From a candidate division WOR-3 bacterium (lineage in GTDB: Bacteria; Hydrothermota; Tepidihabitantia; SM23-42): 64,000 bases of DNA. Positions 544-48,342 of the stretch are shown in pieces. The stretch spans positions 62,001 to 126,000 of the forward strand of contig JAOUFJ010000001.1 in NCBI GenBank assembly GCA_029858255.1, written 5' to 3'. The position numbers and the translations under genes were made by a program. The number at the start of each line of letters is the position of its first letter. Position 1 is the stretch's first letter. The notes under the pieces were generated by a model that searched no databases, was not told where the DNA came from, and saw only the letters and a program-made list of their open reading frames with translations.

Positions 544-576
544 AAAAGGGGCGGCTGAGGCCGCCCCTTTTTTTTC
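544..576 (+). terminator. Rho-independent terminator after the secreted protein gene
   Basis: A GC-rich 12-bp stem (core GGGGCGGC/GCCGCCCC) with a TGAG loop is followed by a run of eight T. It sits 19 bp after the stop codon. Confidence 0.9.
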
Positions 577-625
577 GTTGTGTTCGTTAATCTCGTTACT
601 ATCGCTATTCCCGTTATTATCGTTG
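576..625 (-). repeat. 9-bp array, 6 units
   Basis: CGTTA-type pentamers (CGTTG, CGTTA, CGCTA variants) begin at 576, 585, 594, 603, 612 and 621, exactly 9 bp apart, with variable tetramers between. On the minus strand the constant part reads TAACG. Confidence 0.85.
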
Positions 626-747: not shown

Positions 748-813
748 CTTGTCGAGAAGTGCAGAACCGAAGTACGCGCCACGGAGCATTTAGTTTTTAA
801 CGTAGTAACGATA
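748..813 (+). repeat. Direct repeat, copy 1 (~66 bp)
   Basis: Runs from CTTGTCGAGAAGTGC through GCCACGGAGCA to the first units of a 9-bp array. It is nearly identical to 939-1005, with one substitution and one 1-bp indel. Confidence 0.85.
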
Positions 814-837
814 TTAGCGAACCTAACGAGATTAACG
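798..837 (+). repeat. 9-bp array, 5 units
   Basis: TAACG or TAGCG pentamers at 798, 806, 815, 824 and 833. The first step is 8 bp and the rest 9 bp. The array starts inside direct-repeat copy 1. Confidence 0.8.
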
Positions 838-938
838 AAATTATTGAGTTTGAAACCGTCGTGAGGTGAATGCTTTTTGTTCTCGATGCGTTTCTAACGA
901 AACTTACTCGAACAGTAATGATTTCGGTATTCTTCGAG

Positions 939-1005
939 CTTGTCGAGAAGTGCAGAACCGAAGTACGCGCCACGGAGCACTTAGTTTTTAACGGTAGTAA
1001 CGAAA
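939..1005 (+). repeat. Direct repeat, copy 2 (~67 bp)
   Basis: Second copy of the element at 748-813, 191 bp downstream in the same orientation. It also ends in a 9-bp array, so element and array appear to have been duplicated together. Confidence 0.85.
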
Positions 1006-1029
1006 TTAACGCAATTAACGGTATTAGAT
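989..1029 (+). repeat. 9-bp array, 5 units
   Basis: TAACG pentamers at 989, 998, 1007 and 1016, plus a diverged TAGAT at 1025. All steps are 9 bp. Confidence 0.8.
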
Positions 1030-25622: not shown

Positions 25623-25699
25623 TAACGGCAATAGCAATAATAACGGGAGTAACGAACCCAACGAAATTAACGAGCCTGGCGGTATTAACGATAATAACG
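25623..25699 (+). repeat. 9-bp array, 9 units (left arm of a composite element)
   Basis: TAACG-like pentamers at 25623, 25632, 25641, 25650, 25659, 25668, 25677, 25686 and 25695, each exactly 9 bp apart. Variants are TAGCA, CAACG and TGGCG. The tetramers between them vary. Confidence 0.9.
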
Positions 25700-25747
25700 T
25701 CTTGTAGTAATTTCGCATTTCGCAACTCGAATTTCGAAATTTCTTTT
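25700..25747 (+). repeat. 48-bp core of composite element, copy 1
   Basis: Begins TCTTGTAGTAATTTCGCA and includes the palindrome AATTTCGAAATT. It differs from 48162-48209 at two positions, and both copies are flanked by 9-bp arrays at the same distance. Confidence 0.85.
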
Positions 25748-25806
25748 CAGCGGTATTAACGATAATAGCGATATTAACGAAATTAACGAGCCTGGCGGTC
25801 TTAGCG
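25748..25806 (+). repeat. 9-bp array, 7 units (right arm), running into a gene end
   Basis: Pentamers at 25748, 25757, 25766, 25775, 25784, 25793 and 25802, all 9 bp apart. The last unit overlaps the stop codon and final Arg codon of the minus-strand DUF2520 gene. Confidence 0.88.
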
Positions 25807-26625
25807 CAGCAGTTTCTTCAGCTCTCGCTTCTGTTTGCCTTCGATCAGGGTGTCGACGATGGTTCTTGAGAGGGCTTTGTATATTTCAAGGAGATTCTTG
25901 TCTTTTCTGAGGGCGCGGAGGTGTTTCCTTATCACCTCAACGTCGCCGCGCCGGAGTGGACCGCTCAAGGAGTTTTGTACACCAAGAATCTTAATGTTGG
26001 TAGTTGTTTCTTCGATCATTGGGATGATCATTTGCTCGAGTTCTTGCCGGCGCCAGCCGATCTTGGCAGCAAGTTCATTGATTGACGCAACGAGTCCAAC
26101 GAGCAAGTTAGAGGAGAATACGCCTATGAGATGGTATATTGGCTTATTTTCTTTTTTGATCTTTCTGAGCGTAAAATGTCTCTCGTGAAAAATCATGCGT
26201 GCAACACGTATGGCCTGCGGGTCACCCTCTATGGAAAGAAAGAAGTGTTGCCTTCCAGCGGCTGCGGGTTTTTTGGGAAAGGTGGCAAAAGGGTGCACAG
26301 AGGCGCGGTGGATGTTCTTTTTTTTGGGTATTATATCTGCTGGTAGGCTGCCACTGAAATGAAAAACATATTTGGTCCCTGTGATGGATTTTATCATCTT
26401 CTTGCATACTTGAGGAATTATATCGTCAGGCGTGGCGATCAGAAGCACTTCGCTTTGGTCAATCAATTTCCAGTAATCGGGGTTGTTGGTTATGTTGAGC
26501 AATTTGACTGCTTGTCTTTGTTTTCCTTTGTTTCTGTCGTACATACCAACAATCTGGTTATTGTACTTGAGCAAACGGGTGATCGAAACGCCTACCCGGC
26601 CGCAGCCAATAAGACCAATGCGCAT
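25801..26625 (-). CDS. Rossmann-like and DUF2520 domain protein
   Basis: 274 residues. The N-terminal NAD(P)-binding Rossmann fold starts IGLIGCGRVGVSITRLL (GxGxxG) and includes LLIATPDDIIPQV. The C-terminal helical DUF2520 domain contains HPFATFP and IYHLIGVFSSNLLVGL. The architecture resembles 6-phosphogluconate dehydrogenase/ProC-type reductases, but the substrate is not established. It is expressed from a leaderless promoter (5 nt between -10 and ATG). The 3' end overlaps the last unit of a 9-bp array. Confidence 0.88.
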   Translation of the reverse strand: MRIGLIGCGRVGVSITRLLKYNNQIVGMYDRNKGKQRQAVKLLNITNNPDYWKLIDQSEVLLIATPDDIIPQVCKKMIKSITGTKYVFHFSGSLPADIIPKKKNIHRASVHPFATFPKKPAAAGRQHFFLSIEGDPQAIRVARMIFHERHFTLRKIKKENKPIYHLIGVFSSNLLVGLVASINELAAKIGWRRQELEQMIIPMIEETTTNIKILGVQNSLSGPLRRGDVEVIRKHLRALRKDKNLLEIYKALSRTIVDTLIEGKQKRELKKLLR

Positions 26626-33061: not shown

Positions 33062-33077
33062 GATATTGAACAAGAGA

Positions 33078-33145
33078 CGTTACGGCCGCTAGTATCGTTA
33101 TTCTCGCTAATTTCGTTAATATCGCTATTATCGTTAGTCCCGCTA
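33078..33145 (-). repeat. 9-bp array, 8 units
   Basis: CGTTA/CGCTA pentamers at 33078, 33087, 33096, 33105, 33114, 33123, 33132 and 33141, every step 9 bp. It lies between two divergent leaderless promoters. It reads as TAACG/TAGCG on the minus strand. Confidence 0.9.
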
Positions 33146-37081: not shown

Positions 37082-37362
37082 ATTAAACCCCCTTTTCGTA
37101 CTATCCTGAAGACACATCCGCTGTGCGGATTGAAGACATGCTTACGCTGCAGTCATCTCGCTTCGCTCCTGAAGACACGCTGCGCTGAAGAAACGAACGA
37201 ACAGATAGGTTACGTTCGACGGTAACGAAACCCGATCATAAGAACGCAAACACGAAATCCGAAACCCTAAATTCGAATACCAAAATACAAATGACCAAAA
37301 CAGCCATATTTCACTCCAACGTCCTTTTTGTCAAATTCGCAATACGCAATTCGAAATGTTTT
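37082..37362. repeat. Gap with dispersed palindromic and AT-rich repeats
   Basis: No gene is visible. 37106-37150 (CTGAAGACACATCCGC ... GGATTGAAGACA ... ACGCTG) matches 46047-46092 in inverted orientation. About 37170-37192 repeats CTGAAGACACGCTGCGCTGAAG. From 37220 the text becomes AT-rich degenerate repeat (AAATCCGAAACCCTAAATTC). Confidence 0.65.
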
Positions 37363-37401
37363 TAGCGGTATTAACGAACCAAACGAATTACGATAATAAC
37401 G
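37363..37401 (+). repeat. 9-bp array, 5 units with a 2-bp slip (left arm)
   Basis: Pentamers at 37363, 37372, 37381, 37388 and 37397. One step is 7 bp, the others 9. Confidence 0.8.
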
Positions 37402-37435
37402 TCTTGTAGTAATTTCGCAATACGCAATTTCTTTT
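37402..37435 (+). repeat. Shortened core of composite element, copy 2 (34 bp)
   Basis: Same start (TCTTGTAGTAATTTCGCA) and end (AATTTCTTTT) as the 48-bp core, with an internal 14-bp loss that removes the palindrome. Confidence 0.8.
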
Positions 37436-37485
37436 CAGCGATATTAACGAGATTAACGAAAGTAACGAACCTAACGACAGTGGCT
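37436..37485 (+). repeat. 9-bp array, 6 units (right arm)
   Basis: Pentamers at 37436, 37445, 37454, 37463, 37472 and 37481, each 9 bp apart. It ends 32 bp from the stop of the convergent minus-strand gene. Confidence 0.85.
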
Positions 37486-37517: not shown

Positions 37518-38309
37518 TTAGAACAATTTCAGAACATAGGACAAAGTTATGAATAGGTATTGGTTGACATCCGTCACGGCACCTTCATCATGTGCCGTTT
37601 CGAACACGTATTGAGCAGATATTATGATGGTGGGCGTTATTCTGTATTGAAGACCAGCATATACCCTGTTCAACCTGAAGCCGCTGGGCCAAAAACCAAT
37701 CGGGTTTGGCGGTGCCTGTCCGTCTTCGATCGTTCCAAAAAAGGGTTCGTCCGCGAGGATCACAGTTGTCCGTTCGTCTATTTCATGGGCGATCTGGAGT
37801 AGCTGTCGGATGACGAGCGAATATCCACTGCGCATTTCCGGTGTTTGGTAAACACTGGCGTAGACTGTGTTATGGAATATTGTTCGGCTCGTGAGTGTCG
37901 TTCTGCCAAGCCGATAACTCAGGATCGGGAGGATTTCGATATTATGGGAATAGAAATATGTGCCTTCAGAAGGAAATCCCATGTAGTAGTACCAGACGGG
38001 TAACTTGAAAGTGAATGCGCCGGATGTCTTTGTGAAGACAGGACCGATGAAAAATTCATAGAAGTACACACCTTTGGCCGGCAGCATGTTCGGGTCGTCG
38101 CTTCGGGCAAATTCGTAGCGAAAGCCCGGCATTGTGACAATTGCCCATTTCGGGCTGATCAATGATGTTACGTTGAAATACGACCAGAACCTGCCGGTCG
38201 CTGATGCGCTGCCTAAATTGGGTAGAAGCAGCAATATCACGCACAGAATCAGGGCAGCACATGCAAAATTGACCGGGTTTTCCCGTTTACCGGGTGGATA
38301 TCGTGGCAC
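37518..38309 (-). CDS. Outer-membrane beta-barrel-like protein, DUF2490 type
   Basis: About 263 residues from a GTG at 38309; earlier in-frame ATGs (38351, 38381) would overlap the upstream kinase gene. The N-terminus is a signal-like segment (FACAALILCVILLLLPNLGSASA). The rest is amphipathic strands with aromatic girdles (FWSYFNVTSLISPKWAIVTMPGFRYEFARS ... VYAGLQYRITPTIIISAQYVFE), ending in ITLSYVLKLF with a C-terminal aromatic residue as in barrel proteins. It resembles the DUF2490 family. Function unknown; the start is uncertain. Confidence 0.65.
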   Translation of the reverse strand: MPRYPPGKRENPVNFACAALILCVILLLLPNLGSASATGRFWSYFNVTSLISPKWAIVTMPGFRYEFARSDDPNMLPAKGVYFYEFFIGPVFTKTSGAFTFKLPVWYYYMGFPSEGTYFYSHNIEILPILSYRLGRTTLTSRTIFHNTVYASVYQTPEMRSGYSLVIRQLLQIAHEIDERTTVILADEPFFGTIEDGQAPPNPIGFWPSGFRLNRVYAGLQYRITPTIIISAQYVFETAHDEGAVTDVNQYLFITLSYVLKLF

Positions 38310-38316
38310 GCGGGAC

Positions 38317-38799
38317 TTATAGCTTATAACCGATTTTTCTAAGGAAATCATAACGTTCCTTGCGTGCTTTTTCATCTTCAATGCCCTTTGGAGTGTAGCC
38401 GTCGATTACGCCGATGACACCTCTGCCTTGGTTACCCTCGACGATGATAATCTCGATCGGGTTTGCGGTTGCACAGAAGATATTGACCACCTCGGGGCAT
38501 GCTTTGATCGAGCCGAGGACATTGATGGGAAATGCGTTTTTTATGAATACGATGAAAAAATGACCTGCGCCCACCTCGAGGGCATACTTTTGTGCCATCT
38601 GGACGAGATCGGGATCATTGCCTTCAAAGCGCACAAGGCAAGCGCTCGAAGCTTCGCAGAATGCGATTCCGAACGCAATCTGTGCCGAAGAGTTGATCAG
38701 CGCTTCGTAGAGATCTTCGGCGGTCTTTATGAAATGTGCATGTCCGCAGATCAAATTAATGCCTTCGGGGATCTCAATCCCTATTTTTTTTATCTCCAT
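38317..38799 (-). CDS. Adenosine-specific kinase-like protein (COG1839)
   Basis: 160 residues, full length. Strong family marks are GHAHFIKTAEDLYEAL, FGIAFCEASSACLVRFEGND, the central GAGHFFIVFIKNAFPINVL and CATANPIEIIIVEGNQGRGVIGVIDG. The archaeal structure (PAE2307) bound adenosine, giving the family name, though the in vivo reaction is not firmly set. It lies 37 nt after era, with AAGGAGG before the ATG. Confidence 0.9.
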   Translation of the reverse strand: MEIKKIGIEIPEGINLICGHAHFIKTAEDLYEALINSSAQIAFGIAFCEASSACLVRFEGNDPDLVQMAQKYALEVGAGHFFIVFIKNAFPINVLGSIKACPEVVNIFCATANPIEIIIVEGNQGRGVIGVIDGYTPKGIEDEKARKERYDFLRKIGYKL

Positions 38800-44947: not shown

Positions 44948-45775
44948 CTATTGACCGATCATGTATGGCAGTAGCCATCCGTTGAAATCATAAGGTCCTT
45001 CTTCAGTGAAGATCGTTGAATGGGATATTAGGTCGAAGATAGCAAAGCGCGGGATCGCGACGAGTTGGGCATTCCATGTCCCCTGATACACGCCGCCACC
45101 CATGTTGGTGAAAGGCAGGCGCACATAGAATGGCCAGGCCAATATGAAAGTATGGAGAAATGCGTGTCCGTCTTCAACATTAGTGTAGAGGGTCAGAGTA
45201 ACCTGTTCACCGGACTGAAATGTTATGAGTTCATCAAGAGCGAAGTAAGTGTTCAGGGGATCAGTAATCAGAACGTCAACTGCCTCGGTCATAGTGGTGA
45301 CGCGCAGGCTGTCGATCGCTACCGTACTGACGGTATTCGACTGCCCAAAAGCCAGGGAGATCTTGTCGAGTTCCCAGCCCCGGTTTTCGTCGGATTCTTC
45401 ACCGGTGCGCATAAAGACCGCACGCACTTGCGCCGTCTCTGATAGATTCTTGTCCCAGAGTACCCAAGGCATGGTATCGATTTTCGCGAGAGAGTAGAAG
45501 TGCCCGAAGTTCCCACGGCTGTACGATACCCATGCCGAATCTCCGGTGATCTGGATCTCGATGATCGGATCATCGTGGGTTTGCGCGCCGCGCCACCAGA
45601 TGACCAGGGTGTCCCGATCACCACCAGAGGTTGAATCCACTTCGCTGTTCGGATTGAACCATATCGTATCTTCCTCAATCAGATTCATTATCGCATCTTC
45701 ATCCGTTTCTTTTGAGCACTGGCTGATGACAACTGCCATGACCAGAACCATCGCAACAAACAATTTTCGCTTCAT
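44948..45775 (-). CDS. Lipoprotein of unknown function
   Basis: 275 residues. Lipoprotein signal peptide with VISQC (Cys at about residue 20). The mature protein has a short acidic linker and then beta-rich sequence (DTLVIWWRGAQTHDDPIIEIQITGDSAWVSYSRGNFG ... TYFALDELITFQSGEQVTLTLYTNVEDGHAFLH), suggesting an Ig-like sandwich. I recognise no family. AAAGGAGG supports the ATG, and it has its own promoter. Confidence 0.75.
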   Translation of the reverse strand: MKRKLFVAMVLVMAVVISQCSKETDEDAIMNLIEEDTIWFNPNSEVDSTSGGDRDTLVIWWRGAQTHDDPIIEIQITGDSAWVSYSRGNFGHFYSLAKIDTMPWVLWDKNLSETAQVRAVFMRTGEESDENRGWELDKISLAFGQSNTVSTVAIDSLRVTTMTEAVDVLITDPLNTYFALDELITFQSGEQVTLTLYTNVEDGHAFLHTFILAWPFYVRLPFTNMGGGVYQGTWNAQLVAIPRFAIFDLISHSTIFTEEGPYDFNGWLLPYMIGQ

Positions 45776-45829: not shown

Positions 45830-45843
45830 GCACAAACTTGAGA

Positions 45844-45902
45844 CGCTATATGCGTTATTCCCGTTACTTTCGTTAATTTCGTTAGTATCGTTAATCCCGT
45901 TA
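45844..45902 (-). repeat. 9-bp array, 7 units
   Basis: CGCTA/CGTTA pentamers at 45844, 45853, 45862, 45871, 45880, 45889 and 45898, all 9 bp apart. It begins 15 bp beyond the -35 box of the lipoprotein promoter. Confidence 0.9.
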
Positions 45903-47872: not shown

Positions 47873-48039
47873 GATATGACATGCTTGAAGACGCCGACAG
47901 AAAAGCGGTATAGGACCTGCAGTCGGTTTGAGCGCTCCGCGCGGTGGGGCGCTGAAGACACTCATCTGAGAATCGGTGAATCGGAGAAACGGAGAAGGGC
48001 AGAAGTTGAGAAGATAAGATACTAAGAACGTGAGAAAAG
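47873..48039. other. Intergenic region with low-complexity repeat text
   Basis: No gene seen. Contains GCTTGAAGACGCC ... GGGGCGCTGAAGACACTC, similar to the repeats at 37.1 and 46.0 kb, followed by AATCGGTGAATCGGAGAAAC and purine-rich sequence leading into a long 9-bp array. Confidence 0.5.
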
Positions 48040-48161
48040 GAACGGCAATAGCGGGAATAACGGGGATAACGAGAATAACGAACCGAACGAAAACAACGGT
48101 ATTAGCGGGACTAACGGTATTAACGAAATTAGCGATAATAACGACACTGACGATAATAACG
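48040..48161 (+). repeat. 9-bp array, 14 units (left arm), longest in the window
   Basis: Pentamers (TAACG, TAGCG, GAACG, CAACG, TGACG) start at 48040 and every 9 bp up to 48157 without a break in register. The tetramers between differ (GCAA, GGAA, GGGA, AGAA, AACC, AAAA, GTAT, GGAC, GTAT, AAAT, ATAA, ACAC, ATAA). Confidence 0.93.
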
Positions 48162-48209
48162 TCTTGTATTAATTTCGCATTTCGCAATTCGAATTTCGAA
48201 ATTTCTTTT
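48162..48209 (+). repeat. 48-bp core of composite element, copy 3
   Basis: Begins TCTTGTATTAATTTCGCA and includes the palindrome AATTTCGAAATT. Two differences from the core at 25700-25747. The distance from the last left-arm unit to the first right-arm unit is 53 bp in both places. Confidence 0.9.
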
Positions 48210-48304
48210 CAGCACCACTAACGATATTAGCGAGAATAACGAACCAAACGACATTAACGGGATTAACGAAGTTAGCGATAATAACGAGCTAAACGAAACG
48301 AACG
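48210..48304 (+). repeat. 9-bp array, 11 units (right arm)
   Basis: Pentamers from 48210 in 9-bp steps to 48300 (CAGCA, TAACG, TAGCG, AAACG, GAACG forms). It ends 9 bp before the -35 box of the symporter promoter. Confidence 0.9.
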
Positions 48305-48313
48305 GTTTCGTGG

Positions 48314-48342
48314 TTGACAACGGATACCGCTCCATGTATCAT
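48314..48342 (+). promoter_or_regulatory. Promoter of the symporter operon
   Basis: TTGACA (48314-48319), 17 bp, TATCAT (48337-48342). A leader with GGAGG before the ATG at 48370. Confidence 0.75.

Follow-up and report, generated by a model that had tools for sequence, protein, structure and literature searches.

Slippage is the usual explanation for short-period repeats in bacterial intergenic DNA. STRR sequences and other bacterial VNTRs consist of near-identical units expanded by this process, and REP/BIME and CATTGCGAG-type repeats form dispersed, intergenic and lineage-specific families that adjoin gene ends. TAACTGA direct repeats, which have identical 7-bp units located mostly just upstream of start codons, are known from Beggiatoaceae, Cyanobacteria, and Bacteroidetes (PMC4679880). 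A protein that reads direct repeats of variable number is represented by BldC of Streptomyces, each protomer of which binds a 9-bp direct repeat, AATTXXXX(C), in a directional, head-to-tail manner (PMC5859096).

Here we report the analysis of intergenic arrays of a 9-bp unit, TARCG-N4, in a window of 64,000 nucleotides (G000:C1:62001-126000) from the 2.72-Mb draft genome of an uncultured bacterium of candidate division WOR-3 (G000, 82 contigs), as well as in related genomes and in other phyla. Like the TAACTGA repeats, these arrays are abundant short intergenic direct repeats with a patchy occurrence in distant lineages (PMC4679880), but their units are 9 bp long with variable linkers, and they have a gene-facing polarity that is alike at starts and stops, half of them facing gene ends. 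They share with STRR sequences and VNTRs a short-period intergenic organization and variable copy number; however, identical neighbours are avoided. Dispersal, intergenic location, lineage specificity, and adjacency to gene ends are features held in common with REP/BIME and CATTGCGAG-type repeats, whereas the units, unlike those of REP/BIME, are not palindromic and are lined up as direct repeats, 3-15 per array, in a fixed polarity. With BldC tracks, the arrays share 9 bp per protomer or unit, a constant part followed by four free bases, direct repetition in varying number, and directionality. They differ in having a TARCG core instead of the AATT..C consensus, and in their occurrence at tens to hundreds per genome without a BldC-like gene that tracks them. 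No paper on WOR-3 intergenic repeats or on the core-plus-linker layout was found in the literature.

The arrays combine a signature opposite to that of slippage with a positional rule that depends on which gene end is nearest and not on the direction of transcription. Should they have a protein reader, they would constitute a boundary track spanning the genome in a group without genetics; should they be the tails of elements, they would bring to light a mobile family whose end is unusual. Comparable arrays in other phyla allow the rule to be tested in tractable hosts. The polarity, the non-repetition of units, the long module-rich spacers, the fast turnover, and the counterparts in Firestonebacteria are new with respect to the original prediction, which was made from the window alone.

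Arrays in the window and the structure of the unit

A scoring scan of the window detected 10 arrays with 74 TARCG-N4 units, and a regular-expression scan added an 11th, short array of 3 units on the + strand (37363-37389). All predicted array positions were found in place, and the predicted eleven arrays correspond to these ten plus the short one, while the expected total of about 83 units is replaced by 74 units in 10 arrays. Of the 25 units predicted at about 48.0-48.3 kb, 14 + 10 were found on the + strand (48040-48308). They are split by a 53-bp period-7 TTCG module (48166-48218, + strand) into the main array of 14 units (48040-48165) and a following array of 10 units (48219-48308). The main array ends with TAACGTCTT, as does the 9-unit array at 25623-25703 (+ strand); both were found by the scans, as was the 4-unit array at 806-841 (+ strand).

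The same scoring scan applied to 20 dinucleotide-preserving shuffles of the window found 0 arrays, and 353 exact three-unit matches across the whole draft genome (142 + 211) compare with 1 match of the reversed pattern, in agreement with the earlier statement that the arrays are not AT-rich noise. The exact 9-bp register was likewise confirmed: successive TARCG cores in spacers are separated by 9 bp in 399 cases, by 18 bp in 54, and by 27 bp in 6, and off-register distances are rare (8 bp in 4 cases and 10 bp in 1, that is, 399 pairs versus 5). The unit profile, [A/G][A/G/T]A[N]-TA[A/G]CG, has a degeneracy like that of a binding-site matrix and is almost identical in three species (131 arrays in three genomes); each genome sample contained 53-62 distinct linkers. 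The terminal unit deviates from this profile by a T-rich linker (TCTT, TTTT), as if it marked the edge of a module. Array lengths range from 3 to 15 direct units, with tens to hundreds of arrays per genome.

Intergenic confinement was also upheld, since only 3 of the 131 arrays from three genomes lie within genes called by a simple codon-usage caller built for this analysis, despite a coding density of about 90%. A coding origin was rejected: the arrays can be read as (ARC)(GRD)(ANT) codons, yet they lie outside called genes. At 48.04 kb, a stop just upstream closes this frame, as judged by eye. Nor do the arrays represent CRISPR, as their unit is a 5-bp core with a 4-bp linker and not a repeat of at least 23 bp with unique spacers of about 30 bp. 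Assembly artefacts were considered in the original prediction. Two other array-bearing genomes, G003 and G007, judged to correspond to CP070686.1 (bin65) and CP070802.1 (bin1351), respectively, are single-contig chromosomes; therefore, the arrays are not assembly artefacts.

Arrays point toward the nearer gene

Statistics were collected from 450 kb of G000, 400 kb of G003, 800 kb of G007, and 400 kb of G004, in stretches sampled partly around known arrays. In this material, 109 of 127 arrays have their 3' end, in the TAACG reading, directed toward the gene that lies nearer, and the bias is seen in all four gene-orientation classes (47/50, 30/36, 22/29, and 10/12). When scored by relative position in the spacer, 104/119 arrays point outward (p = 1e-17). 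The polarity is significant in each of three genomes when only single-array spacers are considered (17/20, 26/31, and 26/28), and the rule is obeyed by 10/10 arrays of the window. Where a spacer holds more than one array, neighbours are arranged as 8 outward and 22 tandem pairs, with 0 facing each other. The occurrence of arrays in both orientations, noted originally, is correct; the orientation is, however, non-random.

Arrays face the starts of genes about as often as the stops. Because the polarity is the same at both, it does not represent promoter regulation as such, and an array strand set by gene direction or promoter alone was ruled out. In the window, the 6-unit array at 572-625 (- strand) is directed toward the 3' end of the gene at 181-525 and adjoins its terminator, the 5-unit array at 37436-37480 (+ strand) toward the 3' end of the gene at 37518-38351 (- strand), and the 7-unit array at 25748-25810 (+ strand) overlaps the stop codon of the gene at 25801-26625 (- strand). 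Where the faced gene end is a start, the polarity places promoters after arrays: sigma-70-like promoters, called as consensus matches, occur within 130 bp after the array on the same strand in 37 of 131 cases against a background of 1.9%, and never before the array on its strand in the same 131 arrays. Thus, the predicted abutment on promoters holds for about 28% of arrays, and gene ends are faced as often as starts. The window provides four examples: the 4-unit array at 989-1024 (+ strand), with TTGACA (1060-1065) of an MFS gene promoter 35 bp on; the 8-unit array at 33074-33145 (- strand), with TTGACA of a - strand promoter 12 bp on; the 7-unit array at 45840-45902 (- strand), 10 bp before TTGACA (45829-45824) of the gene at 44948-45775; and the array at 48219-48308, 5 bp before TTGACA (48314-48319), with TATCAT at 48337-48342.

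Gene-relative polarity at both starts and stops would also be expected of a function at the RNA level, in which transcripts leaving a gene carry a phased pyrimidine-rich track, NUHYCGYUA, that is Rho-utilisation-like or bound by an RNA-binding protein and acts against readthrough and antisense transcription. The outward strand is indeed 63% pyrimidine, but C barely exceeds G (21% vs 17%), single arrays are devoid of RNA structure (z -0.7, 0.1, and 0.8), many arrays stand immediately upstream of a promoter, and intrinsic terminators are not scarcer at genes facing arrays (3/47 vs 43/570), which makes this function quite improbable. The replacement of intrinsic terminators by arrays was rejected on the same lack of difference between array-facing and other genes.

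A replichore polarity was also rejected, with no clear pattern in the G007 sample. In G003, the region C1:835000-895000 (L364-L366) has many spacers with + strand arrays, almost all of its genes being on the - strand, and many of these arrays come after CATTGCGAG..CAATCTCAGCAGTT elements.

Units within arrays avoid repetition

When linkers were shuffled among arrays, 21.6 identical adjacent linkers were expected and 6 were observed; duplicate linkers within arrays numbered 37 against 63.4 expected, and 0 of 4000 shuffles were as low. Units inside one array are less alike than units from different arrays. As the units avoid repetition, the arrays were not made by slippage, and a slippage VNTR was ruled out by the avoidance of identical neighbouring units, in line with the earlier view that they are not simple slippage of one sequence. 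In the simplest reading, identical units in an array would be lost by recombination or slippage, so that mixed arrays persist. Bacteroidales loci fetched with the same pattern illustrate the slippage signature, the opposite of that of the WOR-3 arrays, with 23% of adjacent units identical vs 3% between arrays. The perfect 9-bp tandem repeats of TAACGGATG observed in Microcoleus/Tychonema (L059, L069, L120, L124, and L136) look like products of slippage as well, in contrast to the WOR-3 arrays.

Turnover of arrays among related genomes

Within the genus, arrays are abundant in G000, G003, and G007 and nearly absent in G001, G002, G004, G005, and G006; a few are found outside the genus, in other genera and in a further family of the same order (G009, G010, and G025). 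The core of the symporter promoter at 48.3 kb of the window is retained in G003, G007, G004, and G005, and the 14 + 10 units next to it are present in the window genome only. In G007, G004, and G005 the promoter is thus preserved with the 48219-48308 array missing, and the G007 locus has the same upstream gene followed by an unrelated, array-free spacer. The promoter next to the array at 45840-45902 has a counterpart with an array in G003 (L356:7955) and one without in G004.

At other loci, an array occupies the same position and strand in two species. The array at 572-625 has a G003 ortholog (L357:12477-12521) of 5 units with both end units retained. At L347/L358, eight units match one to one, and G000 has seven more (63 bp), in register. 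In the remaining orthologous arrays, end units are mostly retained and inner linkers differ. Changes between clearly orthologous units, aligned by eye, affect 4/100 core sites and 9/80 linker sites, a difference that falls short of significance (p = 0.08); it is suggestive, though not proof, of constraint on the core. We conclude that the arrays turn over quickly.

Such turnover, the lack of start or stop preference, and the in-register gain of 7 units between G000 and G003 would be natural for a neutral minisatellite, an old tandem repeat that was dispersed and is decaying with no reader. Yet its neighbouring units should not be less alike than units of other arrays, which is the reverse of slippage, decay should blur core and register equally, and the polarity is left unexplained. 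We regard this origin as unlikely.

Composite spacers and the possibility of an element tail

Spacers that bear arrays are 2.4 times longer than others (median 358 vs 150 bp), and the 5' flanks of arrays are enriched in dispersed modules, namely period-7 TTCG-NAW, period-8 AGAAG-N3, and CATTGCGAG..CAATCTC. The main rival to a protein-bound track is a non-autonomous element, mobile or dispersed, that inserts in spacers, carries varied 5' modules, and has the array as its 3' tail. The polarity would then come for free, as the rest of the element on the other side puts the tail nearer the gene, and the long spacers and the module-enriched flanks would be expected. Further points in its favour are that array-free orthologous spacers are shorter in several pairs (187 vs 476 bp and 50 vs 324 bp) and that G003 loci share a few blocks of 3-4 units. 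Nevertheless, no common 5' end and no target duplication were observed, and inspection of orthologous spacers for insertion junctions revealed several that are array-free and shorter, with no clean junctions. No partner transposase tracks the arrays: Y1_Tnp is present nearly everywhere, and a REP-associated Y1 transposase was dismissed as it was found in nearly all relatives. Moreover, the lack of facing pairs (0 against 8) is left unexplained, and copying of a tail does not account for a greater difference within than between arrays. On balance, an element tail seems possible, if somewhat doubtful.

Several features of the modules were recorded. The TTCG-NAW module occurs at 25704-25747, 48166-48218, 37317-37362, and 37410-37435, often between or before TAACG arrays, and has near-identical copies at non-orthologous sites of G003; the copy at 25704-25747 (+ strand) separates two arrays and has near copies at 48166-48218 and in G003 L356. 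The purine-rich AGAAG-N3 / GGAGA module located upstream of the main array (47964-48039, + strand) is dispersed in other G000 spacers, likewise consists of a core with a variable linker, and, read along its own strand, is located in the 5' half of spacers (1 against 11 in G000). A partly palindromic dispersed repeat, TTGGTTNTTGGGTTTGGCTGCC..., is found in G007 spacers where G000 or G003 has arrays (G007 L306:10720-11190, L322:14480-14900, and L313:760-1100; G000 L342:600-660). In G003 L367:10532-10645, back-to-back arrays with partly complementary linkers fold into a long hairpin (z -3.2), which suggests an inverted duplication of an array.

A candidate polar track read by a protein

As the best explanation, held tentatively, we propose that the arrays form a polar DNA track that binds one protein protomer per 9 bp in a BldC-like manner. 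Register, core/linker profile, polarity, non-repetition, and turnover are its observed part. The arrays would represent a repeat module that is polar, restricted to certain lineages, and positioned at that rim of composite intergenic DNA which faces a gene. Its TA(A/G)CG core in strict 9-bp register is most likely the recognition unit, read head-to-tail by a putative protein with one protomer per 9 bp. The directional track may end where the spacer meets the gene and act as a boundary there. Four-base linkers would be under loose constraint only, and arrays with identical linkers would shrink through deletion, leaving survivors with differing linkers. We favour this track because of the register (399 vs 5), the matrix-like degeneracy, the polarity, and the low linker repetition, and because orthologous arrays are conserved in position, strand, and end units but vary in their inner linkers. 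Several observations count against it: HTH_17 and MerR_1 yielded no candidate reader, the about equal facing of starts and stops does not look like single-gene regulation, the symporter promoter is retained without an array, sister species have no arrays, and the difference in change between cores and linkers is not significant.

The original prediction of a protein that reads one pentamer per 9 bp fits the register and the BldC precedent (PMC5859096), but no reader was found. HTH_17 has no match in the array-rich G007 and is found in G000 and G003 only within a 611-612-aa frame; MerR_1 has one match in every genome with or without arrays, and hence does not co-occur with them. A BldC-like reader is therefore not supported by co-occurrence. 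As the consensus differs and the BldC-like families do not follow the arrays, membership in the BldC system is not claimed.

The alternative suggestion of a template-driven expansion gained no support. A reverse transcriptase or telomerase-like enzyme that realigns on the core and miscopies the linker would be expected to produce just such a constant core and variable linker in exact register; however, RVT_1 has no match in G000, G003, G007, G009, and G025, and a DGR or telomerase-like writer was rejected on this absence; synthesis of this kind is highly improbable. Both a reverse-transcriptase writer and an RNA-level role are less likely than a polar track or an element tail.

Arrays of this type in other phyla

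Many genomes have exact matches to four units, and these are often perfect tandem repeats. Arrays with diverse linkers were found in Firestonebacteria (223 three-unit matches vs 0 in controls in one genome) and in a Lake Pavin 'Proteobacteria' MAG (13 matches vs 0 in controls), and they also occur in Omnitrophica, in a sample that is not unbiased because the loci were fetched by the pattern itself. The Lake Pavin MAG has the linker words atat, aaat, atac, aacc, and agat in common with WOR-3. The TAACGTTNN arrays of Firestonebacteria avoid identical neighbours (8.7% vs 17.6%), and their polarity is strict with a sense opposite to that in WOR-3, the 5' end being at the gene in 34/38. A new class of polar intergenic element is conceivable, although we would not expect it: a non-repetitive core-plus-linker array at the gene-facing rim of the spacer that arose separately in two phyla or more (WOR-3 and Firestonebacteria) and has its own reader or writer. 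At Firestonebacteria L070, L158, L160, L161, and L163, TAACGTTNN arrays form inverted pairs at both rims of short spacers, so that the whole spacer is an imperfect inverted repeat.
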